This document shows, piece by piece, positions 105-43,643 of a stretch of 43,964 nucleotides of DNA. The stretch is from Nitrospirota bacterium (lineage in GTDB: Bacteria > UBA2233). Positions within the stretch are counted from its first letter, which is position 1. The number at the start of each line of letters is the position of its first letter. The stretch covers positions 1 through 43,964 of the forward strand of contig WOZJ01000041.1 of assembly GCA_011620345.1 (NCBI GenBank), written 5' to 3'. The notes under the pieces were generated by a model. That model made no database searches and was not told where the DNA came from. It saw nothing but the letters and a program-made list of their open reading frames with translations. Position numbers and translations under genes: made by a program.

Positions 105-1601
105 TCATGCCACGACCTTTTTGTTCCACCTGCCTTGGTCCAGTGCCGAAAACTCCTCGAAAAGGTGCTCCCCCCAACGCTTGAGCGTGAACTGCTGAAC
201 GTGGTCGTAAAGGCGCTCCATTCGGCTCTTCGCTTCCTGTTGAGGCATATCGATGGAGGTTTCGATGGCCTTGTCCATGGATTCCACTGCGTAGGGGTTG
301 ACGAGGACCGCATCCTTAAGCTCGACGGCCGCCCCCGTGAACTCGGAGAGGACCAGAACCCCCCCCTTGCCCTTTTTGGTGGCGATATACTCCTTGGCGA
401 CGAGGTTCAGTCCATCCCTGAGTGGCGTAACGAGGCAAACGTCGGCGCATTCGTAGTAGGCGATGATCTCATCGAACGGGATCAGTCGGGCAAAGTGGGT
501 CACGGGAATCCAGTCGAGCTTAGCTAACCGGCCGTTGATGGCTCCCACCCGTTGCTCGATTTCGTTTTGAGTGGTCGTGTAGACCTCCATCCCCTTGGCA
601 GCCGGGGCCGTACCCACGACCAGCTTGATTTTCTCGCGTAACTCAGGCCTTCTTTCGAGAAGACGCTCGAAGGCACCAAGCAGCTCCAGGGTACCCTTGA
701 CATAATCCACACGACCCACGCTAAAGAGCATCTTTCGGCCATGAAGCTCCTCGGAAATCCTCTCAACCCTGGCCCGGTGAATGTCCTGGGCCTGGATCGC
801 CGTGATCGCTTCAGGGTTGATCCCCACGGGGAAGGAATCGATCTTGACGTGTCGGCCACGGAAGAGGAGTTTCTTGGTGGCTTCCGGCTCGGTCAGGGCC
901 GATCCCCTGGGTGTAAAAGCCTCCTCCTCGATGGGCTCCCTTTCCAGGATGCGGACATCCTCCAGCCCCTTGGCGGTCCGTACGAAGTTTTCCGCGTAGC
1001 GGGGGATGTGAAAACCGATGAGGTCGCACGTCAACAGGCTCTCCAGGATTTCTTGACTCCAGGGGATGATGTTGAAGATGTCCGATGCAGGGAAAGGCGT
1101 ATGGTGAAAGAAGGCAATCTTGGCATCCGGCTTGACCCTGCGGATAAAGGCGGGGGCCAGCCAGAGGTTGTAGTCGTGTACCCAGATGATGGTATCGTCC
1201 CCGGCCTCTTCGAGAGCCGCCTTGGCAAAGCGTTCGTTGATGGCAACGAAATTACCCCAGTTTGCCCTCTCGGAGGAGTGATAACTGGGAAACGAGTGCA
1301 AAAGCGGCCACAAGGCCTCTTTGGAGGTGATGTGGTAAAAATCCCTGATCTCTTCCGTGCTTAAGGGAATGCGACGTATGAAATAATTGGCGTTTCCTGG
1401 GGCCGGTAGCTTTTCTATAAAGGGTTCGTCCGTCTTCTCTTCTTTCCAAGCTATCCACGACCCGTGTTCGACGTTCTGAAAGAAACCCCTCAAGGAAGGC
1501 AGGATTCCGTTCGGGCTCGCGTGATCGACAAAGCTCGCCCTGCCGTTTTGGATGACTTCGGCAAAGGGCTGACGGTGGTAAAGAATAACGAGGTTGTTCA
1601 T
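105..1601 (-). CDS. ggpS: Glucosylglycerol-phosphate synthase-like GT20 glycosyltransferase
   Basis: Cytosolic retaining glycosyltransferase of family GT20, 498 aa. It is predicted to join a glucosyl nucleotide (ADP-glucose in characterised GgpS) to glycerol-3-phosphate, giving glucosylglycerol phosphate. Seen: N-terminus [13 protein letters not shown] and the following SPNG stretch (about residues 30-35), as I remember GgpS rather than OtsA; WVHDYN (about 145); VGRVDYVKG (about 300), matching the sugar-nucleotide site of GT20; [10 protein letters not shown] near 405. The open frame can be read back to a TTG at 1625, but the ATG at 1601 matches the family N-terminus and follows GAGGAG inside the end of the upstream phosphatase gene. 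The 7-base gap implies coupling. Third gene of gpsA-phosphatase-ggpS, and gpsA would supply its acceptor. The alternative is trehalose-6-phosphate synthase (OtsA). Confidence 0.82.
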
Positions 1602-1608
1602 GATTCCA

Positions 1609-2334
1609 TCACTCCTCATAGCCAAAATGGTTCAAGCCTTCAAAGATGCCTTCGGTGCCATGCGCTACGCTGTGGTAGATGTTCGGCATGGCCCTAGTCT
1701 TTTGAACGAGGGCAGGTTCGGCATTGCCGACAACAATCCCACGAAGGCCGGTTTCGAACAAGGCCCAATCGTTCAGGGTGTCGCCAGCGCATACCACGGC
1801 CTCCTTGGGCAGGGAGAGGGCGTTGAGCAGCCGAAGCAGCGTTGTCCCTTTGTTGACCCCTTTGGGCAGGATATCGAGGTAAACCCCTGCCGACATCAAA
1901 ACGTCCACCTCCGTCTCTTTAAGGAGATCGAGAGTCCCGGGGTCGAAAGCCTTGTCGTAGTAGTAGGACAACCGGTGCCGAAAGGGGCCGGGCTGGGGGG
2001 TGAGCCCTCGGATGCGGTTGAGTATGGGATGGACACGCTCGGGCTTATCCTGCCAATTTCTGGCAATATCGGACTCTATGGAAAGATAAGGGGAAAAATC
2101 TTTGCCTTCAAACACGCTCGTTCCCACATCCCCGATGATGTAATCGGGCCTGGGGACACCGTCTTCTTGGATGATTCTGCGGATAAAGCCTAAATCGCGA
2201 CCCGTGACGAAAATGAGGGCATCCTCTTTTGATCTGCGGGACAAGAGGCGGTAAAGACGCTCCTTGGCCTCCTTCGACCCGCCTAAGAAAGTGCCGTCTA
2301 AATCGGTTGCAAGAATGAGAGGTTTTGGAACCAT
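1609..2334 (-). CDS. HAD-IIB (sucrose-phosphate-phosphatase-like) sugar phosphatase, probable glucosylglycerol-phosphate phosphatase
   Basis: 241-aa cytosolic HAD hydrolase of the Cof/sucrose-phosphate-phosphatase subfamily. Motif I is ATDLDGTF (residues 8-15) with nucleophile Asp; motif II is in FVTGRD (about 43-48); the Lys of motif III is in the KGVNKG stretch (about 158-163); motif IV is CAGDTLND (about 182-189). Its place between gpsA and ggpS makes removal of phosphate from glucosylglycerol phosphate the likely reaction. In some proteobacteria a HAD phosphatase is fused to the N-terminus of GgpS, so a separate gene directly upstream is consistent. The ATG at 2334 has AGGAGG four bases upstream and overlaps the end of gpsA by 37 bases, so translation is probably coupled. 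If ggpS is really OtsA, this would be the trehalose phosphatase. Confidence 0.8.
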   Translation of the reverse strand: MVPKPLILATDLDGTFLGGSKEAKERLYRLLSRRSKEDALIFVTGRDLGFIRRIIQEDGVPRPDYIIGDVGTSVFEGKDFSPYLSIESDIARNWQDKPERVHPILNRIRGLTPQPGPFRHRLSYYYDKAFDPGTLDLLKETEVDVLMSAGVYLDILPKGVNKGTTLLRLLNALSLPKEAVVCAGDTLNDWALFETGLRGIVVGNAEPALVQKTRAMPNIYHSVAHGTEGIFEGLNHFGYEE

Positions 2335-3359
2335 GCCACCTCCTTTCTCGATGTTTCTACGGGTTTGGCCTCGATGGTCTCCTGCTTGAGGGGGCGCCTC
2401 ATCAAGCGCTTGAGGAGGGTTTCGAGTGAAACGCCTCCGTAGAGGAGCTGGGCAATGGCCTTACAAAGGGGCATGTCCACGCCGTAGCGCTCGGCCAGCG
2501 CACTTACGGAGCGCACCGTGTGCATCCCTTCGCAGGTCTTTCGGCCATCCTCCGTCGCCTCGGCTAAGGTCTGGCCTTGGACCAGGGCATACCCCAGGGA
2601 GAAATTCCTGGATTTTGGACTCATGCAGGTAAGGGTCATGTCTCCAAGTCCGGCCAGGCCCAGGAGGGTTTCGGTCTTGGCCCCCATCCTTTCGCCCAGC
2701 CTTGCGATTTCCATAGCCCCTCTCGACAGCGCCGCTGCCTTGGCGCTCTCTCCTAAGCCTTTTCCGGCTATCGCCCCGCAGGCGATTGCCAGCACATTCT
2801 TAAGGGCCCCGCAGAGCTGAACCCCCATAGGGTCATCCGATAGGTAGGGTCGGAAGATATCCGAGGCCAAAGGCTCGAGCCATGGGAAGGCGAAATCCCG
2901 CGTAGCGATCGTCGTGGCCGATGGCAACCCTTGGGCGATTTCAACGGCGAAATTGGGGCCGGAAAGGACGGCCCTTTTTGTCCGGGGCAGGACTTCTTGG
3001 GCTATTTCCAGGGGGAAAAGCTGTGTGTGCTTTTCGATCCCCTTGCAGGCGATGAGAAGAGCAGGAAGCGGCGAGAGGTGCCTGATGGATTCCAAGAGCC
3101 CCCTTAAGGCCTGGGTAGGCACGGCGACCAGGGCCAGGGGAACGCTAAGGGCCTCTTTGAGCTCCGTCGTTGGAATGAGGGCCCGAGGAAGGGGGACTTC
3201 TGTCAGAGTGCGCGGGTGTCTGCGCTTCTTGGCGATCGTGGCCATGACGCTCGCATCCCGCCCCCAAAGAAGGACAGGGCGGCCGTGTCTGGAGAGCACA
3301 CAACCTAGCGCCGTTCCCCAAGCTCCGGCACCCAGCACCGAAAGAAACGCTCGATTCAT
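2298..3359 (-). CDS. gpsA: NAD(P)-dependent glycerol-3-phosphate dehydrogenase
   Basis: 353 aa, slightly longer than the usual 330-340. Reduces dihydroxyacetone phosphate to sn-glycerol-3-phosphate in the cytosol. Seen: the N-terminal Rossmann motif GAGAWGTALG (residues 10-19), the SGPNFAVEIAQG motif (about 138-149) and the ALKNVLAIACG segment with the catalytic Lys (about 185-195), followed by the helical C-terminal domain with GLGDMTLTC. It is normally a phospholipid-precursor gene. Here it leads an operon with a sugar phosphatase and a GgpS-like enzyme, so its product may also feed osmolyte synthesis. The ATG at 3359 has only a weak GGGA ribosome binding site. The C-terminal 12 codons overlap the phosphatase gene. 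Confidence 0.95.
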   Translation of the reverse strand: MNRAFLSVLGAGAWGTALGCVLSRHGRPVLLWGRDASVMATIAKKRRHPRTLTEVPLPRALIPTTELKEALSVPLALVAVPTQALRGLLESIRHLSPLPALLIACKGIEKHTQLFPLEIAQEVLPRTKRAVLSGPNFAVEIAQGLPSATTIATRDFAFPWLEPLASDIFRPYLSDDPMGVQLCGALKNVLAIACGAIAGKGLGESAKAAALSRGAMEIARLGERMGAKTETLLGLAGLGDMTLTCMSPKSRNFSLGYALVQGQTLAEATEDGRKTCEGMHTVRSVSALAERYGVDMPLCKAIAQLLYGGVSLETLLKRLMRRPLKQETIEAKPVETSRKEVAWFQNLSFLQPI

Positions 3360-4636: not shown

Positions 4637-6031
4637 TCACCCTCGTTCCCCGGCACTTTCGCGACTCGCTATCTGCGTCAAATTCCCCTTGTGTGTGGGA
4701 TAGTACCCTAACCTATTCAGCCACACGGCGATGGTGCCGGGGCTTGCCCCCATGGCATAGGCCATAATAACCCCCCGGTGGAGCAGAAAGGTCTTTAGGA
4801 TACCGAGTCTTTGCCAGCGACGAGCCGAGGTGACCGCGGATTCCGGCAAGATGACGATCTTCCCCATCCGCTTGAGAGCGCGCACGATGATGACATCCTC
4901 CAGAACAGGCGCCGCTCGGAAGCCGCCAATCTCAGCAAAGGTGGATGCCCGCAGGAACAGTCCTTGATCGCCGTAAGGTTCATGGAAGGCCGAGGATCGT
5001 ACATTGGTCAACCATTCGACAATGGCCAACAAAGGGGAATGTTTATCAACTCGAAAGCGAAAGGCGCCGGCGACATTGTCCGGTTGCTTGAGAGCGTCGC
5101 GGATCGAATGCGAGAAACCCGGCGAGAGCAATGTATCTGCGTGGAGAAACAGAAGGATTGTGCCGGTGGCAATTTCCGCGCCAGCGTTCATCTGCCGTCC
5201 ACGTCCAGGCAGGGATCGAGTGACCGTGGCTCCAAAACCTTGGGCAATGGCGCAGGTTGTATCGGTGCTGCCCCCATCGGCAATGATCGCTTCGACGTCC
5301 GGTTCATCCATCACCCTTCCTAGAATCACCCCGATTCGCGCCGCCTCATTCAGGGTGGGGATGATGACGCTGATTCGTTCGGCGCCAGAGCATGGGGCTG
5401 TCTCCTTACTGATGGCTGTCCAAAGCGCCAGATCCTCCGGACGATCGACATCGCTCAGCATTTCAAGCTGACGATATGAACGTCCGGCATCTTTCGCCCT
5501 GAACAGCGTTTCTTCGAGGACGGTTGCGGTTCCCCATGTAATCTCGTGAAAGAGCTCGGGGCAGGGACGCCGCAGACCTACCAGGTAATAGCCGCCATCG
5601 CGGGCGGGACCAAGCACAAGGTCCTTGCTTTCGAGGGACGAAAAAGCCTCTCCGAGAATGTTCCCGTCAAGCTGTGGACAATCGGTGCCTATAAGAACAA
5701 CGGACCGGTAACCGCGTTCGAAGGCCGAGGTAAACGCCTGGGCCATTCTCGCGCCCAAGTCACCCGGCGCCTGCTGCCAATACTCTAGGTCAGCCCCTAG
5801 CCATTGCTGGAAATCGGCGTGCTCGCCTCCCGTATAATGCACCTCCAGTGCAAACCCATGGCGTCGAGCCGCGCTTTGGACGAGGTCTAGCGTATGCACG
5901 GTCATCCGGCGTTGAAGATCGGCCGCCCCCTTCGGCCCCAAGGCTGGGATCAGGCGCGTCTTCGTGAGGCCGGGCTTTGGCAGGCGAGTGAAGAGAATTA
6001 CCAGCGGGGCATTCTTGTCCTGCAATGTCAT
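4637..6031 (-). CDS. Fused arsenosugar-type glycosyltransferases (TIGR04282 + TIGR04283)
   Basis: 464 aa in two nucleotide-diphospho-sugar transferase modules. Residues 1-205 are the DUF2064/TIGR04282 type: LVILFTRLPKPGLTKTRL near the start, GTDCPQLD (about 120) and GPARDGGYYLVGL (about 145). Residues 215-464 are a GT2-like TIGR04283 module: SVIIPTLNEA (about 221), ADGGSTDTT, LLFLHADT and EPYGDQGLFLR. In most genomes these are two adjacent genes associated with ArsS, annotated as arsenosugar biosynthesis glycosyltransferases; here they form one polypeptide. No membrane anchor is evident. The start is ATG 6031, with GAGGAGAG just upstream; the upstream TTG at 6064 is rejected. A GH15 remnant lies directly upstream. 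Confidence 0.88.
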   Translation of the reverse strand: MTLQDKNAPLVILFTRLPKPGLTKTRLIPALGPKGAADLQRRMTVHTLDLVQSAARRHGFALEVHYTGGEHADFQQWLGADLEYWQQAPGDLGARMAQAFTSAFERGYRSVVLIGTDCPQLDGNILGEAFSSLESKDLVLGPARDGGYYLVGLRRPCPELFHEITWGTATVLEETLFRAKDAGRSYRQLEMLSDVDRPEDLALWTAISKETAPCSGAERISVIIPTLNEAARIGVILGRVMDEPDVEAIIADGGSTDTTCAIAQGFGATVTRSLPGRGRQMNAGAEIATGTILLFLHADTLLSPGFSHSIRDALKQPDNVAGAFRFRVDKHSPLLAIVEWLTNVRSSAFHEPYGDQGLFLRASTFAEIGGFRAAPVLEDVIIVRALKRMGKIVILPESAVTSARRWQRLGILKTFLLHRGVIMAYAMGASPGTIAVWLNRLGYYPTHKGNLTQIASRESAGERG

Positions 6032-6050
6032 CGTCTCTCCTCTGGGCGCT

Positions 6051-6225
6051 TCACAACGGGTCAATCGTGGGATACTACACCTCGTTCAGCACCCCGGCCG
6101 AGAGGGTGAACCAGATCGTGCTCGAAGCCGCATAGGCGCAACCGACCGCGTCCTTATCGCTGGCGTGTCCATTTCGGCTCGATGCCCGGTGAACCGAAAG
6201 CAGGATTTTCCTTGTGAACTATCAT
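6051..6225 (-). pseudogene. Remnant of the N-terminus of a GH15 glucoamylase-like gene
   Basis: The ATG at 6225, with AAGGAG upstream, opens MIVHKENPAFGSPGIEPKWT. After a frameshift near 6160 the next frame gives DKDAVGCAYAASSTIWFTLS, then AGVLNEV-stop-YPTID. This is the characteristic beginning of GH15 glucan 1,4-alpha-glucosidases (APGIxPRWTxSxKDxVG ... WFTLSxGxLNExYYP). About 55 codons remain, with a frameshift and an in-frame TAG at 6075-6077. The rest of the gene, normally several hundred codons, is gone, so it is non-functional. Confidence 0.72.
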
Positions 6226-6282
6226 CGCGGACTCCTTGAGCGATTGAGGGTGGATAAGCCCGAGCGATCTGCTCCGTTTGGG

Positions 6283-7815
6283 CTAGCGCATGACCTTCAA
6301 CATCCATTCGAGCATTTTCTTCCGGCCAGGCGTCAGGCGTTTGCGATTATACTGGTCGGCCGCCTTGCGAATGACTTCTGCTTGTGTCGGGTAGGGGTGA
6401 ATCACGTTGCCGACACTGCCCAGCTTGATCTTCTGGGTCATCGCCAATGTCAACTCGCTGATCATTTCGCCGGCATGCCGGGCAACGAGGGTAGCCCCAA
6501 GGACGTGGCCATCCCTGACGTTCACATGCACCTTGAGAAATCCTTCCTCGTCACCATCGAGCACAGCCCGGTCGACATCACTGAGTTCCACCTTGATCGT
6601 GTCGTATCTGATTCCCTGCTCATCCAATTGGCGTGCGTAGGCCCCAACGTGAGCGATCTCCGGATCGGTATAGGTGCACCAGGGGATGACAAGGCCGCTG
6701 AACTTTTTCCTGGGCAGAAAAGGAAAGAGCGCATTTTGAACCGCAATTCGCGCGCCAAAGTCGGCGGCGTGCGTGAACTTAAAAGCCGAACAGATGTCGC
6801 CCGCTGCGTAGATGTTGGAATTGGATGTCTGCAGCGCATCATCGACCTGAACACCCGAGCGACCATATGCGACGCCAGCCGCTTCGAGATTCAGTCCCTC
6901 CACATTCGGCGCCCGCCCGACGCCGACAAGAATCTGGTCGGCTGTGAGTGCCAATGACCGACCGCTTTGATTCACGTGAATCGTCTTGACGCCATTCTCG
7001 ACACTTGCGCGCTCCACTTCGGCGTTAAGCAGAATCTCAATTCCCTCGCGTGCGAACGTCTGGGCCAGAATCGTGGCGGCATCGGGATCTTCCTTGCTCA
7101 GAAACTGTGGCCCGTGATGGATTATGGTCACGGCGGAACCGAGCCGGTGGAAGGCTTGCGCCAGCTCGCAGCCGATCGGTCCACCGCCGATCACGACTAA
7201 TTCGCGCGGCAGTTGGGTGAGAGAAAAGACGGTCTCGTTAGTCAGATAACCCGCTTCGGCCAAACCGTCGATCGGTGGTGAAGCCGCCCTCGCGCCGGTG
7301 GCGATGATCGCCTTCTTGAAGCGCAGCCTTTGGCCCCCTACCTCAACGGCGTCCGGGCCGGTGAAGCGGGCGTCGCCGAGAAACACATCGACTCCAAGCC
7401 CGGCAAATCGGTTCACTGAGTCATTCGGGCTGATGCCGCTGCGCAGGCGGCGCATTCGTTCCATCACCGCCACGAAATCCACGGAACAGTCAGATGGACC
7501 TTTGATGCCAAAATTCGAGGCATTTTGCAAATCGAAGGCCGCACGCGAAGATCGGATCATCGCCTTGGAGGGAACGCAGCCGACATTCAGGCAGTCGCCG
7601 CCCATCAGGTGGCGTTCCACAAGAGCGACATGCCCGCCCAGGCTTGCCGCAATCGCGGCGGAAACCAAACCCGCGGTGCCTGCCCCGAGAACGACCAGAT
7701 TGTATCGCCCCCGGGGCTGGGGATTGTCCCAGTCGTCCGGATGCGCGTTCTGTACCAGTTCGGAGTTGTAGCGGTCCATCGGCTCGATTCGGCCAATTCG
7801 TTCATTGCTATCCAT
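6283..7815 (-). CDS. Mercuric-reductase-like FAD-dependent pyridine nucleotide-disulfide oxidoreductase
   Basis: 510-aa flavoprotein of the class I disulfide reductase family. Seen: FAD-binding GAGTAGLVSAA (about residues 41-51), redox-active GGDCLNVGCVPSK (about 71-83, Cys-x4-Cys), NAD(P) site GGGPIGCELAQAF, and the C-terminal HPYPTQAE dimer-interface motif. It lacks the heavy-metal-associated domain and the C-terminal Cys pair of true MerA, so Hg(II) reduction is not assured. This type commonly sits beside TVP38 and ArsS-associated genes. The reading frame can be extended upstream to 7995, but that part belongs to a kinase remnant. ATG 7815 (MDSNERIGRIEPMDRYN) fits family members and has GAGAGGA about ten bases upstream. 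Confidence 0.85.
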   Translation of the reverse strand: MDSNERIGRIEPMDRYNSELVQNAHPDDWDNPQPRGRYNLVVLGAGTAGLVSAAIAASLGGHVALVERHLMGGDCLNVGCVPSKAMIRSSRAAFDLQNASNFGIKGPSDCSVDFVAVMERMRRLRSGISPNDSVNRFAGLGVDVFLGDARFTGPDAVEVGGQRLRFKKAIIATGARAASPPIDGLAEAGYLTNETVFSLTQLPRELVVIGGGPIGCELAQAFHRLGSAVTIIHHGPQFLSKEDPDAATILAQTFAREGIEILLNAEVERASVENGVKTIHVNQSGRSLALTADQILVGVGRAPNVEGLNLEAAGVAYGRSGVQVDDALQTSNSNIYAAGDICSAFKFTHAADFGARIAVQNALFPFLPRKKFSGLVIPWCTYTDPEIAHVGAYARQLDEQGIRYDTIKVELSDVDRAVLDGDEEGFLKVHVNVRDGHVLGATLVARHAGEMISELTLAMTQKIKLGSVGNVIHPYPTQAEVIRKAADQYNRKRLTPGRKKMLEWMLKVMR

Positions 7816-7883
7816 GCCAGTCCAGTCCTCTCTGATAGTTGAATTTTCCCACATGGGTGTAATGCCCATTCGTAGGGTGTCCA

Positions 7884-8086
7884 TCCTTGGCAGCTCAAAC
7901 CAAAACGTGGCGCCTCGGTCATTATTATTGATTATTGCGCACGCCGATCCGCCTGCCATGGAGTTCGACAAGTTGTTTGCAGATATGGAGGCCAAGGCCA
8001 GAACTGGTTTCAGTTACGCGATTACCACCCGCACAGAATTTGATGGCATTGCCGATCAGATTTTGTAATACCTGACGCTCATTCGG
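7884..8086 (-). pseudogene. Degenerate C-terminal remnant of a sensor histidine kinase (HATPase domain)
   Basis: Directly after the TVP38 stop codon the sequence encodes NERQVLQNLIGNAIKF (the N-box of a HATPase_c domain). It then jumps to SGLGLHICKQLVELHG (the G2 box), reaches three stop codons, and resumes in another frame as RGATFWFELPR, the usual end of the domain. The D/G1 box between the N- and G2-boxes is missing and at least one frameshift is present. No start codon or dimerisation domain remains. The last frame runs without a stop into the flavoprotein gene, which explains the artificially long open frame there. Confidence 0.75.
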
Positions 8087-8089
8087 AAC

Positions 8090-8797
8090 CTAATTGCGCA
8101 GGGCAGCCCGAGCAACGTGGGTAATGTAGATCGTCACCGCCACTGTGGCCAACAAACCGATGATCTTGAAGACTTGTTGGCTCATACCCCCTTCGACCGA
8201 ACCGGTAAAGACCTGGGCCAGGTCCTTGGCCGTCGAACCCAGATAAACATAAAGCACCGTACCGGGGATCATTCCGAGCCAGGAGGCGAGAACGTAGATA
8301 GAAAACCGGACTCGGGTCAGCCCGAACGCGTAATTGAGCATATTAAAGGGGAATACGGGCGACAAACGTGTCAAGAGAACGATTTTGAAACCTTGTCGCC
8401 CAACCGCCTCGTCAATCGCCGCGAATTTGGGGTTTCGCTCGATTTTTCGCTCGATGAAGTCCCGCGCGAAGTAGCGCCCGACGAGGAAGGCGGCACTAGC
8501 ACCCACTGTGCTCCCCACAGACACGGTTAACGAGCCTGCCACGACCCCGAAAAGAAATCCGGCGGGCAGCGTCAAGAGCAAGCCAGGGATAAAGAGCACA
8601 GTGGCAACGACATAGGCGCCAGCCAGAACCAGGTAGCCCCAGTATCCAATCCCCCGAGTCCATTCCAGCATTGCCGAGATATATCCCTTGACCGGCAGGA
8701 ACGCGAGGATGGCGACGATCGCCAGAGCAAGGCATGCCAGGAGGGCCGGTCGTACCCATTTATTCGGCCGGGGCGATGAGTGGATTGCTTGGTTCAT
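8090..8797 (-). CDS. TVP38/TMEM64 (DedA-like VTT domain) membrane protein
   Basis: 235-aa polytopic inner-membrane protein. The VTT domain shows GRYFARDFIERKI (about 106-118), then LLTRLSPVFPFNMLNYAFGLT and SWLGMIPGTVLYVYLGS (about 175-191). Hydrophobic spans lie at about 17-34, 47-70, 75-105, 165-190 and 208-228. Related DedA/TVP38 proteins are linked to lipid scrambling and envelope homeostasis; the role here is unknown. ATG 8797 has GAGGA about eight bases upstream. TVP38 genes frequently accompany mercuric-reductase-like flavoproteins and ArsS clusters, which is the arrangement seen here. Confidence 0.88.
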   Translation of the reverse strand: MNQAIHSSPRPNKWVRPALLACLALAIVAILAFLPVKGYISAMLEWTRGIGYWGYLVLAGAYVVATVLFIPGLLLTLPAGFLFGVVAGSLTVSVGSTVGASAAFLVGRYFARDFIERKIERNPKFAAIDEAVGRQGFKIVLLTRLSPVFPFNMLNYAFGLTRVRFSIYVLASWLGMIPGTVLYVYLGSTAKDLAQVFTGSVEGGMSQQVFKIIGLLATVAVTIYITHVARAALRN

Positions 8798-8861
8798 TCC
8801 GCATTGTCCTCAGGTATATTAGGTCTGGGAATCTCGTCATTCCTGACAGCAGTTTCGCGCA

Positions 8862-9028
8862 TCAGCGCTGTTCGTCCAGAGGCCGGTCATAATCCAAGCA
8901 ATCGATTCGGTACTCTTGCTTTTCGAGGTATTGCGCATCTTCATCGCTCACATGACGCGAGGTGAATTCCAAAACCGGTCGAACAGACGCATCGGCTTGC
9001 CGAAACCCTTTTGTCTGGTATTGTTCAT
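8862..9028 (-). pseudogene. Small ORF after arsS, apparently frameshifted near its start
   Basis: The AGGAGG overlapping the arsS stop codon is followed by ATG at 9028, but that frame closes after 26 codons. The alternative frame is open from before the ATG to TGA 8862-8864 and encodes EQYQTKGFRQADASVRPVLE, then EFTSRHVSDEDAQYLEK and a charged tail ending in PLDEQR. It looks like a roughly 57-codon gene shifted by a one- or two-base indel within its first codons. I do not recognise the family. Confidence 0.4.
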
Positions 9029-9030
9029 GG

Positions 9031-10047
9031 TTATCCTCCTGTGTTCTTTTGTGTACGTGTTGGGTTCACCAACGCACCTGCACACGAAGATCCGCATCCG
9101 GCAGTGCATCCGAAACAGTGTAGACCCGTGACGATCCGGCGGCGCTGGAGGGCCTCGATATCGAACTCCCGAATGTGACTCGGCGTGCCATGATTGACCG
9201 GCAACCCCAACGCCAGGTTGAAATCACAATCGTGGATCGTGCCATTCCAGTCCACGCTGATCTGGTGGCGGCACATCAGACCGGGGAGCGTTTGGGGGTT
9301 GAAATTGTCACGCAGAACAGCAAGATACGCTTCCTCCCTCTTCTGGACGCGCAGTTTGGCCCAGAAGCGGCCAATCGGCATGTTGGTGATTGTGTGCAGG
9401 TGGCTGAAGTGAATTCCAAGGCGTTCCTCGAGTTCCCTGCGATAGGTTGCTTCCAGTTCCGCCTGCGATGGCGGAAGGGTTGGGCCAATCGGATTGAATA
9501 TCAAATCCAGAGGCAGATCATCGCGCATGCCATAGCCTAGTCCATTCAGCATGCGCAACGCTTCGATGCTTCGGTGGTAAGCGCCCGGACCTCTCTGCAG
9601 ATCGACATTTTTCTCCAGGTAGCAGGGCAGAGATGCGACGAGGGAGACCATGCTATCAGCCATGAAGGACGCCATATCTTCATAGCCCGGCTCCAGCAGA
9701 ATGGTCAGATTCGTTCGCACTTGGACCTGGAATGTTTCGTCGCGCAGAGCCTGGACAAAGCGTTGAAAATGAGGATTCATCTCGGGCGCTCCACCAGTCA
9801 GATCTATCATCCAGCAACCACATTCGCGCGCGGCCTTCACGATCGCCCCCATCGTCTCCCAGCTCATCTGCTCACGGCGCTTGGGACCAGCTGCCACATG
9901 GCAGTGACGGCACTTCATGTTGCAGCGCAATCCCAGATTCATCTGTATCGTGTCTATACTTAGAGACTTAAGGGGCTGCCCTTCTTCTTGTGCAACCCGA
10001 TCACGGAAGGTATTTAATCGTTTTTGATCCAAATCATGCATACTCAT
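9031..10047 (-). CDS. arsS: Arsenosugar biosynthesis radical SAM protein ArsS
   Basis: 338-aa radical SAM enzyme. The [4Fe-4S] motif is CNMKCRHC (about residues 41-48), followed by DLTGGAPEMNP (about 85-95). The C-terminal DUF3641-type domain carries CRHQISVDWNGTIHDCDFN (about 268-286) and CFGCTAGCGSSC (about 312-323). ArsS acts after arsenic methylation, in building the 5'-deoxyadenosyl arsenical that leads to arsenosugars. The C-terminal Cys cluster corresponds, as I recall, to the region where some homologues carry selenocysteine; here all positions are Cys. The ATG at 10047 follows TTGGAGG with good spacing; the TTG at 10065 is rejected. No arsM is visible in the window, so either it lies elsewhere or the pathway is incomplete. 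Confidence 0.9.
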   Translation of the reverse strand: MSMHDLDQKRLNTFRDRVAQEEGQPLKSLSIDTIQMNLGLRCNMKCRHCHVAAGPKRREQMSWETMGAIVKAARECGCWMIDLTGGAPEMNPHFQRFVQALRDETFQVQVRTNLTILLEPGYEDMASFMADSMVSLVASLPCYLEKNVDLQRGPGAYHRSIEALRMLNGLGYGMRDDLPLDLIFNPIGPTLPPSQAELEATYRRELEERLGIHFSHLHTITNMPIGRFWAKLRVQKREEAYLAVLRDNFNPQTLPGLMCRHQISVDWNGTIHDCDFNLALGLPVNHGTPSHIREFDIEALQRRRIVTGLHCFGCTAGCGSSCAGALVNPTRTQKNTGG

Positions 10048-10086
10048 GTCGTCCTCCAACTCCAAATAGTCCAGTTACCATATTCC

Positions 10087-26677: not shown

Positions 26678-27283
26678 ATGCGTATTGTAGGCCTAGATCT
26701 TGCGGGTTCGCCAAAGCGCCGTACGGGGTACTGCCTGTTTGCCGGCGGGCGAGTGGAGACACGGATATTGTATGCAGATACGGACATTCTGCGGGCTCTC
26801 TACGAGGATAAGCCGGAAATCGTGGCGATTGATGCGCCTCTCTCTCTTCCTTTCGGGCGATGTTGCCTGCTCGAGGAGTGTAGCTGCCGGGGCAAGGCGC
26901 ATTTGAGGGTCTGCGACAAGACGCTTCTTTCCATGAAAATCCATTTTTTCCCCATCACTTTGGGGCCCATGCGTCTTTTGACAACTCGTGGAATGAATCT
27001 AGCCGAATCGCTTGCAAAAAGGGGAATTCGCACAATCGAGGTCTACCCGGGCGCAGCACAGGACCTTTGGGGGATTCCACGCAAACAAAAAGATGTCGAG
27101 GGGCTAAGGGCAGGGCTTGAGGGGGTTGGGCTGTGCAGCATTTCTAAAGGGCTTTCCCACGACGAGTTGGACGCCATCAGCTGCGCCCTTGTCGGAAGGG
27201 ACGTGCTGGAGGGGAAGGGGTTGGCCGTTGGTATCCCTCAAGAGGGGCTTATGTTCCTTCCTGGAGTGGAAAACCAGGTTTGA
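26678..27283 (+). CDS. DUF429-family protein (RNase H-like fold)
   Basis: 201 aa, cytosolic. The N-terminal VGLDLAGSPKRRTGYCLF (about 4-21), IVAIDAPLSLP (about 47-57), IRTIEVYPGAAQDLWG (about 123-138) and SHDELDAISCALVG (about 162-175) match the DUF429 family, predicted to have a nuclease-like RNase H fold with acidic residues in the first two motifs. Biological role unknown. A Cys-rich stretch (CCLLEECSCRGKAHLRVC, about 61-78) could bind metal. ATG with AAAGG close upstream. Confidence 0.8.
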   Translation: MRIVGLDLAGSPKRRTGYCLFAGGRVETRILYADTDILRALYEDKPEIVAIDAPLSLPFGRCCLLEECSCRGKAHLRVCDKTLLSMKIHFFPITLGPMRLLTTRGMNLAESLAKRGIRTIEVYPGAAQDLWGIPRKQKDVEGLRAGLEGVGLCSISKGLSHDELDAISCALVGRDVLEGKGLAVGIPQEGLMFLPGVENQV

Positions 27284-27335
27284 ACAGCATTAATTAAAAT
27301 TAATAGTATGCCGATGAAAGAATGAGGAGGTTTAC

Positions 27336-28685
27336 ATGATTCGCGTGATCAAGGGGGGGACGGTGGTGACCTCCAGCGAGATGTACCAGGCTGACATTGC
27401 CATCGAGGACGGCGAGATCGTAAGGATTGCGAAAGACATCGACACTGGAGGCTCAGAGGTCATCGATGCCAGGGGGGCCTACGTGTTCCCCGGGGCGATC
27501 GATCCTTTCGTGAGCCATTCTTTAACGCTCGATGGTCTTTCTACCGAGGAGGATTTTTCGGAAGTAACCCAAGCGGCCGTTCTGGGCGGAACGACAACGG
27601 TCCTCGATTGTGCCTATCAAGACCGAGGCATGTCACTCAAGGCCACGCTGGAGGCTTGGCACGCAAAGGCTCGGGGGCGGGCGCTTGTGGATTATGCCTT
27701 CCACATTGTTGTTTCTGACCCATCCGAAAGGGCATTGGGAGAATTCCGCGATATCGTCGAGAACGAAGGGGTCAGCTCATTTAAAGTCTTTCTCGGGTTC
27801 AAGGACCGCTGGATGCTGGACGACGCGTCCTTTTTCCGGCTTCTCCAAAAAGCTCGGGAGATCCCGGCGCTTGTGGTCGTTCATCCAGAAAACGGCTGTG
27901 TCACGAGCTTTCTTCAAAACTATGCCATTCGCCACGACAACGTCTCTTTTGCACATTATGCACAAGCAAGCCCTTGTATTCTTGAAGGGGAAGCGATCCA
28001 TCGAGCCGTGGCGTTCGCTTCGCTCGCAAGCTGCCCGCTGTATGTGTCCCCCACGACGTGCAGCGAGGGGCTAGGGGCTGTCCTTCGCGCTCGAGGCCGC
28101 GATCAGGAGGTGTTCGCCGAGACGCTGCTGCCCTATCTCTTGTTCAATGGCCTTTCGGAGGGGGCGAGAACACTTCCGAGCCCTCCGTTTAGGGGCAAGG
28201 AGGATCGAGAAGCACTTTGGAGTGCGCTCAAGCAAGGCTACATCCATACGGTGGGTTCGGGGCACATTGGCCTGCCAGGCATGCCTGAAGTACCAGCCGC
28301 AAGGGAAGACTTTCGCGATATTCCAAAAGGCTTCCGAGGCGTGAGAGAACGCTTCGGCCTTTTATACACCTATGGCGTCGAAGAGCGCCGGATCACGCTT
28401 AATCGCTTCGTGAGCCTCGTTTCTACGGCACCTGCCAAAATTTTTGGTATGTTCCCAAAAAAAGGGACGATTGCCGTAGGCTCGGATGCCGACGTGGTCG
28501 TGTGGGATCCGACCGAAGAGCAGAAAATCACCACAAATGACTCAATGTATGCAGAGTACAGGATCCAAGGAAGGCCTCTGGCTGTCCTGCTTCGGGGAGA
28601 AGTTGTCGTTCAAAACGGCGAGCTACAAAAGGAGCCGGGCATCGGAAAATTCATCTTTCGGGCCAAGCATGGCATGTACCTGTAG
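27336..28685 (+). CDS. Dihydropyrimidinase/hydantoinase homologue lacking key metal ligands (probable pseudoenzyme)
   Basis: 449 aa, full family length and colinear with D-hydantoinase/dihydropyrimidinase (YVFPGAIDP, GGTTTVLDCA, SSFKVFLGFK, LLYTYGV, KGTIAVGSDADVVVWDP). The metal site is altered. The HxH after DP is replaced in DPFVSH (about 57-62). The His of LYVVHxS is replaced in LYVSPTT (about 233-239). The Asp of GxDHxPF is replaced in GSGHIG (about 305-310). The carboxylated Lys (FLGFK) and the His of VHPEN remain. It is therefore unlikely to hydrolyse cyclic amides, though a structural or regulatory role is possible, as in CRMP proteins. ATG has GAGGAGG upstream. Intact and not decayed. 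Confidence 0.85.
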   Translation: MIRVIKGGTVVTSSEMYQADIAIEDGEIVRIAKDIDTGGSEVIDARGAYVFPGAIDPFVSHSLTLDGLSTEEDFSEVTQAAVLGGTTTVLDCAYQDRGMSLKATLEAWHAKARGRALVDYAFHIVVSDPSERALGEFRDIVENEGVSSFKVFLGFKDRWMLDDASFFRLLQKAREIPALVVVHPENGCVTSFLQNYAIRHDNVSFAHYAQASPCILEGEAIHRAVAFASLASCPLYVSPTTCSEGLGAVLRARGRDQEVFAETLLPYLLFNGLSEGARTLPSPPFRGKEDREALWSALKQGYIHTVGSGHIGLPGMPEVPAAREDFRDIPKGFRGVRERFGLLYTYGVEERRITLNRFVSLVSTAPAKIFGMFPKKGTIAVGSDADVVVWDPTEEQKITTNDSMYAEYRIQGRPLAVLLRGEVVVQNGELQKEPGIGKFIFRAKHGMYL

Positions 28686-32982: not shown

Positions 32983-33077
32983 ACTACCCCTTGTTTGCCG
33001 CTTATACGTTTCGCAGGCAGGCATTACAGCCGCGTAAAGAAAATGAACCTGCCAGCAAAAAAAGGAATCACAAAACC

Positions 33078-36907: not shown

Positions 36908-39900
36908 TCAACGGACGACGGATTTTTCTTCGGTGATCTCGAGTGTCTTGTTTTCTGCCAATAAAAGAAGGAACTGGTCGGCTGGGACGGGTCTGGAAAA
37001 GATATACCCCTGGATCCCGTAGCACCTGAGCCTATGCAAGAAGAGCAGCTGATCGCGTGTTTCGACGCCCTCAGCGATGACCCTTAGCCCTAGGCTTCCT
37101 GCGATCTGGATAACTGCGCTCACGATCGCTTGATTGACTGGATCTTCCAACCCGCCCCTGATAAACGACTGGTCGATCTTTATCGTATCGACAGGCAGTC
37201 GCTTTAAGTAATTTAGCGAGGAGTATTCCATGCCGAAGTCGTCTAAGGCGATCCGAACGCCCATTTTTTTAATCTCGCCTAGGATCTCGATGGTTTGCTC
37301 GATATCGAGCATCGCGGTGGATTCGGTGACCTCGAGCTCCAGCCGTTCCGGGGGCACTCCTTCTTCGGAAAGAACCCGTTTAACCATCGACAGGAGTTCT
37401 GGGTCTTGGAACTGTCTGGCCGAAAGGTTCACGGATGCATAGATGTGCTCGAACCCAAGCGTCCGCCAGGCTTTAAGCTGCCTTATGGCCTGCTTTAAGA
37501 CCCACTCTCCGATCGGAATGATTAAGCCGGTATGCTCCGCAACGGGTATAAAGCGTACCGGGGGTACAGACCCAAGCTCTTTGCTGTTCCATCGCAACAA
37601 CGCTTCGCAGCCGATGATTTCCCCCGTTTCAAGGATAATTTGGGGCTGGTAATGTAGGCTGAACTCGCTTTCTTTCAGCGCCTTTCTTAGGTTTGTTTCC
37701 ATCAGCAGGTAATCAGAGATCTTTTCGTCTAGCTCTGCAGTATAAAATGCGTACGTCCCGCCACCCCGTTCCTTGGCCCTGTACATCGCCATTTCCGCGT
37801 TTTTCAGGAGCGTGTCCGTATTCGTCCCGTCCTTCGGAAAAATCGAAAGCCCAAGGCTTGCGGTGACGAACACCTCTTTGCCGCCTACCCAGAACGGCTG
37901 TTCGAACACCCTTAATAGCCTTCCGGCGACGTCCGCTAGGTCTTCGGTTGCTACAATATCGGGCATCACTATGGAGAACTCGTCCCCCCACGGCCTCGAT
38001 ACCGTATCCAGCGCGCGGATAGCTAGCCTGAGCCTTCCGGCTACGGAACGGATAATCTCGTTGGAGGCCTCGAACCCCAGCGATTCGTTCAACACCTTGA
38101 AGCGGTCCAAATCGATGAGGGCCACGACAACGATCGGATGATGGGAAATGGCTTGCTGTAGCCTCTCGGCGAGTAGCATCCGGTTTGGGAGCCCGGTGAG
38201 CTCGTCGTAGTAGGTCATCTGCTCGATCCGCCCTTGGGCGAGTCGCTCTTCTGTAATGTCCCTGCCAACAAAAATTAAGCCCTTACTGGAGCCATCCGGG
38301 TTGAGCAGAGGGACCTTGGTCACTTCACAAAGAATGCCTTGTCCATCTTTGACCTCTAATTTCTCTTCATAGCGGCAAAGCGTTCCTGCCTTCCATGTGC
38401 GCTCGTCCGTTACCTTGCAGTAGGCGAGCGTTTCGGCAAGCTCGGGGATGGCTTCAGAGAGCTCGTCGTCGGTTTTTCCTAGGTATTTTTTTCCTTCGAG
38501 CTGAAACAGACGAAGCGTTTGGGGGTTGGCCAAAAGCCATCGGCCCTCGGCGTCTTTCATTCCGACGGCCAAAGGCATGGCTTCAAGAAGCGTTCTTAGG
38601 AGCGCCTCGGATTCTGCAAGCGCGAGCTCCGCACGTTTTTTTTCCGTGACGTCTTGGTTCGTCCCCGTGAATTTGACTGGTTTTCCCTGCTCGTTCAACA
38701 CAACTTCGGCCTGCTCCCGAATGTAGCGCATTTCCCCGTTTTTGCGCACGATTCGATACTCAAAATCCAAACAGGCATGGTTTTGTACGGCTTCTTCTAT
38801 CACCCGATTTACAAGCGCCCGGTCTTCTGGGTGAACGACGGACATGAACCTTTCGTACGAGGGGTCCTCTCCTTCCTGAAGCCCAAAAATTTTATAGGTC
38901 TCCTTTGAGTACACCATCCCGTTTGTCTTTAAGTCGCGCTCCCAACTCCCGATGCGCGCAATCCGCTGCGCGCGCTCGAGCAGGTCTTCGAGCCTCTTGC
39001 GCTGCTCGATCTCGGACTTGAGCCGATCGATGGTTTCTCTAAGTTCGGCCGTTCGTTTGACGACCTCCCCCTCGAGGGTTTCGTTGGCACCTTTTAGGGC
39101 TTGGAGCGAATCCCGAAGGGTTGCCAGAAGCATGTGCAGGCTAACGCTTAGCGAGTTTACTTCCAAGATGGGGGTAGCTGGCCAGTCTGTTCTTGCAATC
39201 GGGGTCAGCGGCTCGTCTTTGACCCTCGAGGCGAGCGCCTCAAGCTGGCCCAAGGGGCGGGAGAGTGCCTTGGCGGCGACCCAGGCGAGCACGAGCATGA
39301 GCAGGGCAAGGCCCCAGAAGGTCGCGAGGCCGGGTAGAAGCGCGTACATTAGGCGATTGAACGAACTTCCTAAAAAAACCCTAGCTTCAAGGGTCCACGG
39401 TGTTTGGCCGACAGGAAGGCTGTAGAGGTAGAAAGACTGCTGCCAGCGTCCAACAAACCTAGCCGATGGAGATGCGCTGTCCGTCGGCATGGCGTGGAGG
39501 ATGTCGTCTTCCATGCGGCGCATGGAGTAGCGGCCATGCCCTAGGGTTTCACTGAAAAATGTCGGGGAGCCAACAATGGGCTTGCCCCGAGCGTTGACCA
39601 GGCGGACCTCGATGCTCGGGCTTGTAGCTCGAAAGAGGGCGGCGCGTAGGAAGTCTAGGTCCAAGATGCCCACGATGACCCCGAGAGGCTCCCCGTTTTG
39701 GAGTATGGGGACAACCATGGCCGGGGCGGAGTTCAACCCCGGAAGGCCCGGCTGGAAATCATCGGCTAGCATGGGCATTCCAGTATTCTGCACGACGCCG
39801 GTAAGCTTGTTATCCTCAAGCGGCCTGGTTTGTTTCCACGTGGAACAATCGAAATGGGAAGAAAGACACGCCTGGACCTTGCCTTTTTGATCGAGCACGA

Positions 39901-40717
39901 AGAACGCGGAACACTCTGGGAATACCTCTTGGGCTAAGACCATATTTCCCATAAGGTCACTCGAGGACAATCCTTTTTCAGCGGCACGATGGGCTATCCC
40001 CCACAGGATTTCTAGCCTGCGCTGGAGGATATTTTCCATCATAAGCGCCCCCTTGCCCGCCTCGGCCTTGAGTGAGCCAATAAGCTGCGACTCGATGCCC
40101 CTGAGCGTCGTCCGGGTTTGCACGAATGTAAGGAAGGTTGCAGGCAAGAGCGTGGCGGACAGCAGCGTGCTGGCAAGCACTTGGTTCATATGAAGCCCCC
40201 CCAAAGGCCGGGAGACGAGCCTGAAACGTTGAGCCAAAAGAATTAGGGCAAGGTCGGCGATGAGCGCGTTCAACACCCCGTTTGTGCCGACCTTCAGCAG
40301 GATGACCCATCCAAGCGTACTGTGCAAATCGCTTAAATGGGTAAGGGCGAAAACCGGCAGGCCGATCAAGGCCCAGAACCCAAGCGAAGCCAGCGAAAGC
40401 AAGCGAAGCCTCGGGTAGACCAAGGCGATGCAAAGGCCCTCGAGCGTGAACACCAAAATGTCCGAGGGGTTCTGCCAGATCCAGTACGGCACCAACCCCG
40501 CAACGAGCGCCCCGAGTGTTGCCCAGCGAGGGCCGTATGCGGCCGCGAGCAGGAGAACGAAAACGGGCCCGAAGAACAGCCGAACGCCAGGCAAGAGCTC
40601 GACTTTCAGCGTATTGGCAAAAAAGCCCAGCACAATAAGCAAGGCGGCAAAAACAAAAAAGGGATATCGTTTTTTTTGGCTGGAGAGGGGATTGCGTATG
40701 CTTGCTTGGCGCAACAA
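36908..40717 (-). CDS. Membrane sensor protein with PAS-PAS-GGDEF-EAL domains (cyclic di-GMP turnover)
   Basis: 1269 aa. The N-terminal polytopic part (about 20-185, six or more spans) is followed by a periplasmic sensor segment (about 210-450), a further span (about 455-485), a HAMP-like segment and a coiled coil. PAS domains lie at about 585-700 and 705-830. The GGDEF domain has an altered signature, RPWGDEFS (about 908-915). The EAL domain shows CEALLRW (about 1036) and LDDFGMEYSSLNYLK (about 1158-1172). The EAL residues suit an active phosphodiesterase, while the GGDEF domain may be weakened. TTG 40717 is the likely start, with GAGG just upstream and no ATG nearby. A 41-codon ORF precedes it. 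Confidence 0.9.
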   Translation of the reverse strand: MLRQASIRNPLSSQKKRYPFFVFAALLIVLGFFANTLKVELLPGVRLFFGPVFVLLLAAAYGPRWATLGALVAGLVPYWIWQNPSDILVFTLEGLCIALVYPRLRLLSLASLGFWALIGLPVFALTHLSDLHSTLGWVILLKVGTNGVLNALIADLALILLAQRFRLVSRPLGGLHMNQVLASTLLSATLLPATFLTFVQTRTTLRGIESQLIGSLKAEAGKGALMMENILQRRLEILWGIAHRAAEKGLSSSDLMGNMVLAQEVFPECSAFFVLDQKGKVQACLSSHFDCSTWKQTRPLEDNKLTGVVQNTGMPMLADDFQPGLPGLNSAPAMVVPILQNGEPLGVIVGILDLDFLRAALFRATSPSIEVRLVNARGKPIVGSPTFFSETLGHGRYSMRRMEDDILHAMPTDSASPSARFVGRWQQSFYLYSLPVGQTPWTLEARVFLGSSFNRLMYALLPGLATFWGLALLMLVLAWVAAKALSRPLGQLEALASRVKDEPLTPIARTDWPATPILEVNSLSVSLHMLLATLRDSLQALKGANETLEGEVVKRTAELRETIDRLKSEIEQRKRLEDLLERAQRIARIGSWERDLKTNGMVYSKETYKIFGLQEGEDPSYERFMSVVHPEDRALVNRVIEEAVQNHACLDFEYRIVRKNGEMRYIREQAEVVLNEQGKPVKFTGTNQDVTEKKRAELALAESEALLRTLLEAMPLAVGMKDAEGRWLLANPQTLRLFQLEGKKYLGKTDDELSEAIPELAETLAYCKVTDERTWKAGTLCRYEEKLEVKDGQGILCEVTKVPLLNPDGSSKGLIFVGRDITEERLAQGRIEQMTYYDELTGLPNRMLLAERLQQAISHHPIVVVALIDLDRFKVLNESLGFEASNEIIRSVAGRLRLAIRALDTVSRPWGDEFSIVMPDIVATEDLADVAGRLLRVFEQPFWVGGKEVFVTASLGLSIFPKDGTNTDTLLKNAEMAMYRAKERGGGTYAFYTAELDEKISDYLLMETNLRKALKESEFSLHYQPQIILETGEIIGCEALLRWNSKELGSVPPVRFIPVAEHTGLIIPIGEWVLKQAIRQLKAWRTLGFEHIYASVNLSARQFQDPELLSMVKRVLSEEGVPPERLELEVTESTAMLDIEQTIEILGEIKKMGVRIALDDFGMEYSSLNYLKRLPVDTIKIDQSFIRGGLEDPVNQAIVSAVIQIAGSLGLRVIAEGVETRDQLLFLHRLRCYGIQGYIFSRPVPADQFLLLLAENKTLEITEEKSVVR

Positions 40718-42653: not shown

Positions 42654-43643
42654 ATGCCACGCACCGATAGCGCCTCGGAACGAATCGTTTACCTGACTGG
42701 CGGGGTAGGGGGCTCTCGCTTCCTGTCCGGCCTTGTGCGCCATGTCAGCCCAAATCAGCTTTGCATCGTCGTAAACACGGCCGATGACAGGGATTTCTTT
42801 GGTCTGCACGTAAGCCCGGACCTCGATACGGTTCTTTACAAGCTTTCTGGCGTCGTCTCAGGAGAGGGCTGGGGGGTGCGGGGGGATACCTTCTTTTGCT
42901 TAGAGCAGATCTCGAAGCTTGGCGAGGAGGCGTGGTTTCGGCTTGGTGACAAGGATTTGGCCACGCACATCCTAAGGACCAAGCTGTTGCGCCAAGGGCT
43001 TCCGCTTCACTCGGTGACGGAGAGGCTTGCAAAGAGGTTCGGAATTCCGTGGAGAATCCTGCCGATGTCTGATGACCCTGTCGAGACATGGATCAAGACG
43101 GAGGAACACGGCTGGGTTCACTTTCAGGAATACCTCGTGAAATACCGAAGCATGCCCAGCGTGCTCGATGTCCGCTACAAGGGCGTCCGAGCCGCACGAG
43201 CAACGCAGGAGGTGCTAGAGGCGCTCGAGCGCGCAAGCCTTGTCATTATAGGGCCGAGCAACCCGATCACAAGCATAGGCCCCATCTTGGCGCTTCGAGG
43301 CGTCAAGCCACTTTTGAGGGCCTTAAACAAGCCTGTTGTGGCCGTAAGTCCCCTGATCGGCGGTAGGCCTGTCAAGGGCCCGCTCGATAAGCTTTTCCTT
43401 GCCATAGGGCTAGAACCCGGCAACCTTGCAGTGGCAAGCCGCTACCGCACATTCTTAAGGGGCCTCGTGATTGACCAGGCCGACCGAAGCGATGCAGGGG
43501 CTCTAGCCAAAAATGGCCTGCAGGTGCTTGTCACCGATACGCTTATGCGCACGCAAGAAGATGCTGACCTGCTTGCCGGGGTGACCCTTTCGTTCGCCCG
43601 GGATCTTTCCGCCTTGCCGGACTGTTCGAGTAAAACCGCCTAA
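42654..43643 (+). CDS. cofD: CofD/FbiA: 2-phospho-L-lactate (phosphoenolpyruvate) transferase of coenzyme F420 synthesis
   Basis: 329 aa. Transfers the phospholactyl or phosphoenolpyruvyl group from its GDP-linked donor to the deazaflavin Fo, giving F420-0 or its dehydro form. Seen: YLTGGVGGSRFLSGL (about 13-27), VVNTADDRDFFGLHVSPDLDTVLY (about 39-62), DKDLATHILRT, PMSDDPVETWI (about 138-148), FQEYLVKYRS, IIGPSNPITSIGPIL (about 197-211) and AVSPLIGGRPVKGP (about 228-241), all family hallmarks. No cofC, cofE, cofG or cofH gene is within the window. Plus strand, 94 bases after the NamZ gene. Confidence 0.93.
   Translation: MPRTDSASERIVYLTGGVGGSRFLSGLVRHVSPNQLCIVVNTADDRDFFGLHVSPDLDTVLYKLSGVVSGEGWGVRGDTFFCLEQISKLGEEAWFRLGDKDLATHILRTKLLRQGLPLHSVTERLAKRFGIPWRILPMSDDPVETWIKTEEHGWVHFQEYLVKYRSMPSVLDVRYKGVRAARATQEVLEALERASLVIIGPSNPITSIGPILALRGVKPLLRALNKPVVAVSPLIGGRPVKGPLDKLFLAIGLEPGNLAVASRYRTFLRGLVIDQADRSDAGALAKNGLQVLVTDTLMRTQEDADLLAGVTLSFARDLSALPDCSSKTA

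Follow-up and report, generated by a model that had tools for sequence, protein, structure and literature searches.

The open reading frame (ORF) at positions 27,336–28,685 (+ strand) of contig WOZJ01000041.1 (assembly GCA_011620345.1) encodes a 449-amino-acid homologue of D-hydantoinase/dihydropyrimidinase without four of the six metal ligands of that family. The contig stretch analysed here, 43,964 nucleotides in length, is referred to as the window. Our comparisons suggest that the product is probably a folded, catalytically dead descendant of a D-hydantoinase, that is, a lineage-specific bacterial pseudoenzyme that would act by binding; this reading rests on two closely related sequences. 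It is best read as convergent with the animal CRMPs and the pseudo-dihydroorotase of Pseudomonas.

A full-length D-hydantoinase homologue

The reading frame starts with ATG and its translation contains no internal stops. A strong Shine–Dalgarno sequence, GAGGAGG, read directly from the sequence at 27,324–27,330 (+ strand, approximate to 1–2 nt), lies 5 nt 5' of the start codon and is also conserved in Nitrospirae bacterium UBA2233, a genome of the same genus. Promoter and terminator scans gave matches at chance level only.

Among NCBIfam profiles, the D-hydantoinase/dihydropyrimidinase equivalog TIGR02033 matched the protein with 409.9 bits (cut-off 393.25 bits) over model positions 2–454 of 454, compared with 167.8 bits for the best dihydroorotase model. 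The nearest solved structures by HMMER were the bacterial D-hydantoinases 1k1d (370 bits), 3sfw (354 bits) and 1yny (352 bits), with which the protein shares full-length colinearity and about 40% identity. These scores confirm the original prediction of a full-length protein colinear with hydantoinases. It differs from the D-hydantoinases in its metal ligands, in its pocket (where neither Tyr155 nor the IPNGG motif is kept) and in two shorter loops, near residues 273 and 402. Structure prediction with AF2 gave a mean pLDDT of 37 from the single sequence and of 47 (pTM 0.51) from a 5-row alignment, which is too poor for pocket inspection; Foldseek ranked 1k1d first for the latter model, but at 14 Å rmsd, and the pocket was left uninterpreted.

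Loss of metal ligands and pocket residues

All five metal motifs align with 1k1d without gaps in HMMER, and the ligand assignment was the same in a 24-sequence alignment and in the 138-row MAFFT alignment described below. Four ligands are replaced (H58F, H60S, H239P and D309G) and two are kept (Lys150 and His183), as had been read from the sequence: both His of HxH, the later His and the Asp substituted, with only the Lys and one His remaining. PHTH of 1k1d has become PFVS, so that codons 58–60 (27,507–27,515) encode F-V-S in place of H-x-H, by alignment to 1k1d and 135 homologues. SLKVF corresponds to SFKVF, in which the bridging Lys, normally carboxylated in the family, is retained at codon 150 (27,783–27,785), and VHAENG to VHPENG, in which the ligand His is retained at codon 183 (27,882–27,884). 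YVVHVTC has changed to YVSPTTC, with Pro for the ligand His at codon 239 (28,050–28,052), and GSDQC to GSGHI, with Gly for the catalytic and ligand Asp (D315 of 1k1d) at codon 309 (28,260–28,262); all these codons are on the + strand.

The pocket has also changed. Comparison across the family places Phe at codon 155 (27,798–27,800, + strand) in place of a near-invariant pocket Tyr, and the IPNGG pocket motif of the family reads IPKGF. His310 is conserved, and a new His61 stands in VSH, one residue past the lost HxH. The protein retains the C-terminal motif GxGxF and the segment KGTIAVGSDAD. Ten of 44 near-invariant family positions, defined from the 48 best homologues, are altered (H58F, H60S, Y155F, V238S, H239P, G256D, D309G, F313L, K319V and G407E), compared with 0–5 for any other homologue left out in turn. 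Alterations affect 5 of the 7 pocket positions and 5 of the 37 elsewhere (Fisher P = 0.004, a descriptive value, the pocket class having been set after the alignment was seen), and three of the five outside the pocket (V238S, F313L and K319V) adjoin pocket motifs in sequence. As judged from these alignments, the active site has been lost selectively while the scaffold around it was retained. Binuclear metal hydrolysis by such a protein appears very unlikely, because four ligands are gone, including the Asp, and Pro replaces one ligand His. Retention of Lys150 and His183 is odd for a purely structural protein, and a residual site might persist there.

Distribution among homologues

The homologue sample came from 829 genome-searches, which covered about 720 distinct genomes, and from a small number of public contigs. 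Of the 138 rows of the final alignment, three belong to the protein itself (the query, a copy from its own locus and the sequence from the second Cutipiota species), leaving 135 others. All six ligands are present in 130 of these; the remaining five each differ at a single position (in two, which are dihydroorotase-like proteins, the Lys is missing), and none differs at more than one. The same four substitutions recur in UBA2233, whose protein is 96% identical. Within the homologue sample, therefore, only the two genomes known for the genus show the fourfold ligand loss, and because the second genome was independently assembled, chance or assembly error is very unlikely. A single scan of public genome contigs recovered, besides UBA2233, one distant protein from Alkaliphilus and nothing else. 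Viral-contig scans returned two ordinary hydantoinase homologues, which served alignment depth only, and the relatives returned included no other members of the source's family or of higher ranks up to its phylum.

In GTDB-based taxonomy UBA2233 forms its own phylum, Candidatus Cutipiota, comprising two genomes (1.8–1.89 Mb, 55.75–56.11% GC) whose source habitats were oil-contaminated soil and a tailings pond (PMC11382960). The source genome is 1.80 Mb and 96.8% complete. We found no bacterial hydantoinase pseudoenzyme in the open-access literature (subscription journals were mostly outside the scope of the search). The view that bacterial examples of this kind are little described therefore holds for hydantoinases in the literature searched, but not for pseudo-dihydroorotases, which are well described (PMC7053772).

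Purifying selection

Across 449 codons, the source and UBA2233 copies of the gene are separated by 48 synonymous changes, 20 nonsynonymous changes and no indel. In this two-species comparison dS was 0.158, dN 0.020 and dN/dS 0.127, inside the range of the neighbouring genes (0.057 for TypA to 0.28 for DUF429), and 20 or fewer nonsynonymous changes among 68 would have P = 4.6e-15 under neutral proportions. The gene is under purifying selection and is not decaying. The ratio reflects only the time since the two species diverged, which is recent, and not the stem on which the ligands were lost; the stem branch of the Cutipiota protein is long, at about 1.0 substitution per site. An intact frame had originally been taken to argue for a non-hydrolytic role. 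With selection, ligand loss and the CRMP-like pattern (fold and two of six ligands kept) added, such a role is the best inference.

Genomic context

Directly upstream and co-directional, separated by a 52-bp gap, lies a gene for a 201-amino-acid DUF429 protein with an RNase H-like fold (26,678–27,283, + strand; Pfam PF04250, 30.7 bits, cut-off 23). From this arrangement, it is probably an operon partner of the hydantoinase-like gene. The pair is flanked by NamA and TypA on the opposite strand, and an AT-rich palindrome in the 52-bp gap is not conserved in UBA2233. The DUF429 neighbour had been proposed as a conserved one, and the same gene order is indeed present in UBA2233. However, the whole 10-kb region is colinear between these two nearly identical genomes at 94% identity, so the shared order carries little weight, and no DUF429 relatives were present in the fetched flanks of other hydantoinase homologues' loci. 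The DUF429 family has conserved putative active-site residues and a genomic context conserved across related taxa (PMC3985635). We regard the DUF429 protein as no more than a tentative candidate partner of the hydantoinase-like protein.

The source genome, 96.8% complete, contains no second hydantoinase-type gene, and no match to the pyrimidine dehydrogenase PreA scored above the cut-off; because of these two absences, we see no sign of a classical pyrimidine catabolic pathway in this genome. The sub-cut-off PreA match is a PyrD-like ORF adjoining a ferredoxin-reductase-like ORF (named by reading), and five nitrilase-fold proteins are present, which are not diagnostic of pyrimidine catabolism. 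The source pyrC, which has the HxH, His and Asp motifs, lies in a pyrB–pyrC–carA–carB cluster on another contig (genes named by reading). An annotation trap follows from the profile scores: the ORF passes a curated dihydropyrimidinase equivalog cut-off without four of six metal-binding residues, and the pyrimidine or hydantoin catabolism with which automatic annotation would credit Cutipiota is probably lacking.

Comparison with known pseudoenzymes

The original prediction likened the protein to the CRMPs of animals. CRMPs (CRMP1–5, DPYSL) share with it the hydantoinase fold and the loss of four of six ligands, and those of animals show no DHPase activity; CRMP-4 keeps two of the six, has Leu165 in place of the bridging Lys, retains its pocket and has no DHPase activity (PMC4051505). 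In the Cutipiota protein, by contrast, the bridging Lys is kept (Lys150), and its 449 residues compare with about 570 in CRMPs, which carry an extra C-terminal region. On the sequence evidence, the likeness is one of analogy and not of descent, because the bacterial D-hydantoinases score up to 370 bits, against about 243 or less for CRMP structures in HMMER, and the Lys is kept; descent was judged here from bit scores. The comparison thus stands for the retained fold and the number of ligands left, and as an analogy only.

A bacterial precedent for a non-catalytic subunit of amidohydrolase fold is the pseudo-dihydroorotase (pDHO), as in Pseudomonas PyrC' and the pDHO domain of yeast Ura2. The Pseudomonas pDHO is inactive, yet aspartate transcarbamoylase (ATCase) needs it, and in the yeast type the zinc ligands are absent and the fold is retained (PMC7053772). 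These proteins derive from dihydroorotase and work with PyrB, whereas the Cutipiota ORF is hydantoinase-derived and unlinked to pyrB.

Proposed function and alternatives

A protein so altered would be unable to assemble a binuclear Zn centre or to activate a hydrolytic water, and so would work by binding. Another protein might use it as an oligomeric scaffold or regulatory subunit, the part played by CRMPs in animals and by the pseudo-dihydroorotase for Pseudomonas ATCase, or it might be a sensor, with a small ligand still bound in the ancestral pocket; we judge the scaffold or regulatory subunit to be somewhat the more likely of the two. A bolder version, in which the protein is an independently evolved bacterial counterpart of CRMPs, a scaffold or regulator without enzymatic activity, whose partner may be the DUF429 protein, kept across a candidate phylum, is conceivable, and we would put it at rather less than even. 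If the pseudoenzyme reading is correct, animals and a bacterium have each kept a hydantoinase scaffold emptied of its metal site for a role other than catalysis, which makes at least two such cases, and the Cutipiota protein would offer a simple bacterial system for asking what such scaffolds do.

The protein could instead still be an enzyme, with a remodelled mononuclear or metal-free site (Lys150, His183, His310 and the new His61) and a different reaction. The amidohydrolase superfamily includes some mononuclear or metal-independent members, and selection on the gene together with the kept Lys150, His183 and His310 would suit this alternative. We nevertheless consider it unlikely, since the protein has lost the water-activating Asp, both HxH His and the later-strand His, Pro239 cannot serve as a metal ligand, and the pocket residues Tyr155 and IPNGG (IPKGF in the ORF) have also changed. 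Membership of the same superfamily and a style of ligand loss like that of the Pseudomonas pDHO (PMC7053772) might point to a pseudo-dihydroorotase-type subunit of ATCase. The D-hydantoinase score (409.9 bits, against 167.8 at best for dihydroorotase) makes this very improbable, as does the placement of pyrB beside an ordinary pyrC, with HxH, His and Asp motifs, on another contig; the idea of an ATCase partner was rejected on that pyrB–pyrC context.

We give each of two further explanations hardly any credence. A recently inactivated gene becoming a pseudogene would be in keeping with the missing catalytic residues and with a stem as long as about 1.0 substitution per site, but both frames are intact and free of indels, dN/dS is 0.127 with P = 4.6e-15 against neutral proportions, and the strong ribosome-binding site is conserved in UBA2233. 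Misalignment, with the true ligands of an ordinary enzyme shifted, draws on the His one residue past the lost HxH position (VSH), where His61 might act as the second His. Such a shift explains at most one of the four losses, and the surroundings of D56-F58-S60, 239 and 309 are gap-free in both the HMMER and the MAFFT alignments.

Other genes in the window

The window differs from the syntenic UBA2233 contig at 32,999–34,277 (+ strand), where a TrmO-like gene (by reading) and an HTH_1/LysR-type regulator have no counterpart; in UBA2233 the sequence that matches 34,278 onward comes almost immediately after a CoA-transferase, indicating an insertion in one species or a deletion in the other. At 105–3,359 (− strand), a GT20 glycosyltransferase, a sucrose-phosphatase-like HAD phosphatase and a GpsA-like glycerol-3-phosphate dehydrogenase (by reading) form one run, whose composition suggests a pathway for glucosylglycerol or a similar compatible solute. 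A DUF2064/glycosyltransferase 2 fusion, a pyridine-nucleotide disulphide oxidoreductase and a radical SAM-DUF3641 protein are encoded at 4,637–10,065 (− strand), a set that we take to resemble genes linked to arsenosugar biosynthesis; we note beside it that a tailings pond is one Cutipiota source habitat. A 1,269-amino-acid sensor protein with PAS, GGDEF and EAL domains is encoded at 36,908–40,717 (− strand), and a CofD family protein (PF01933) at 42,654–43,643 (+ strand) adjoins a NamZ muramidase.
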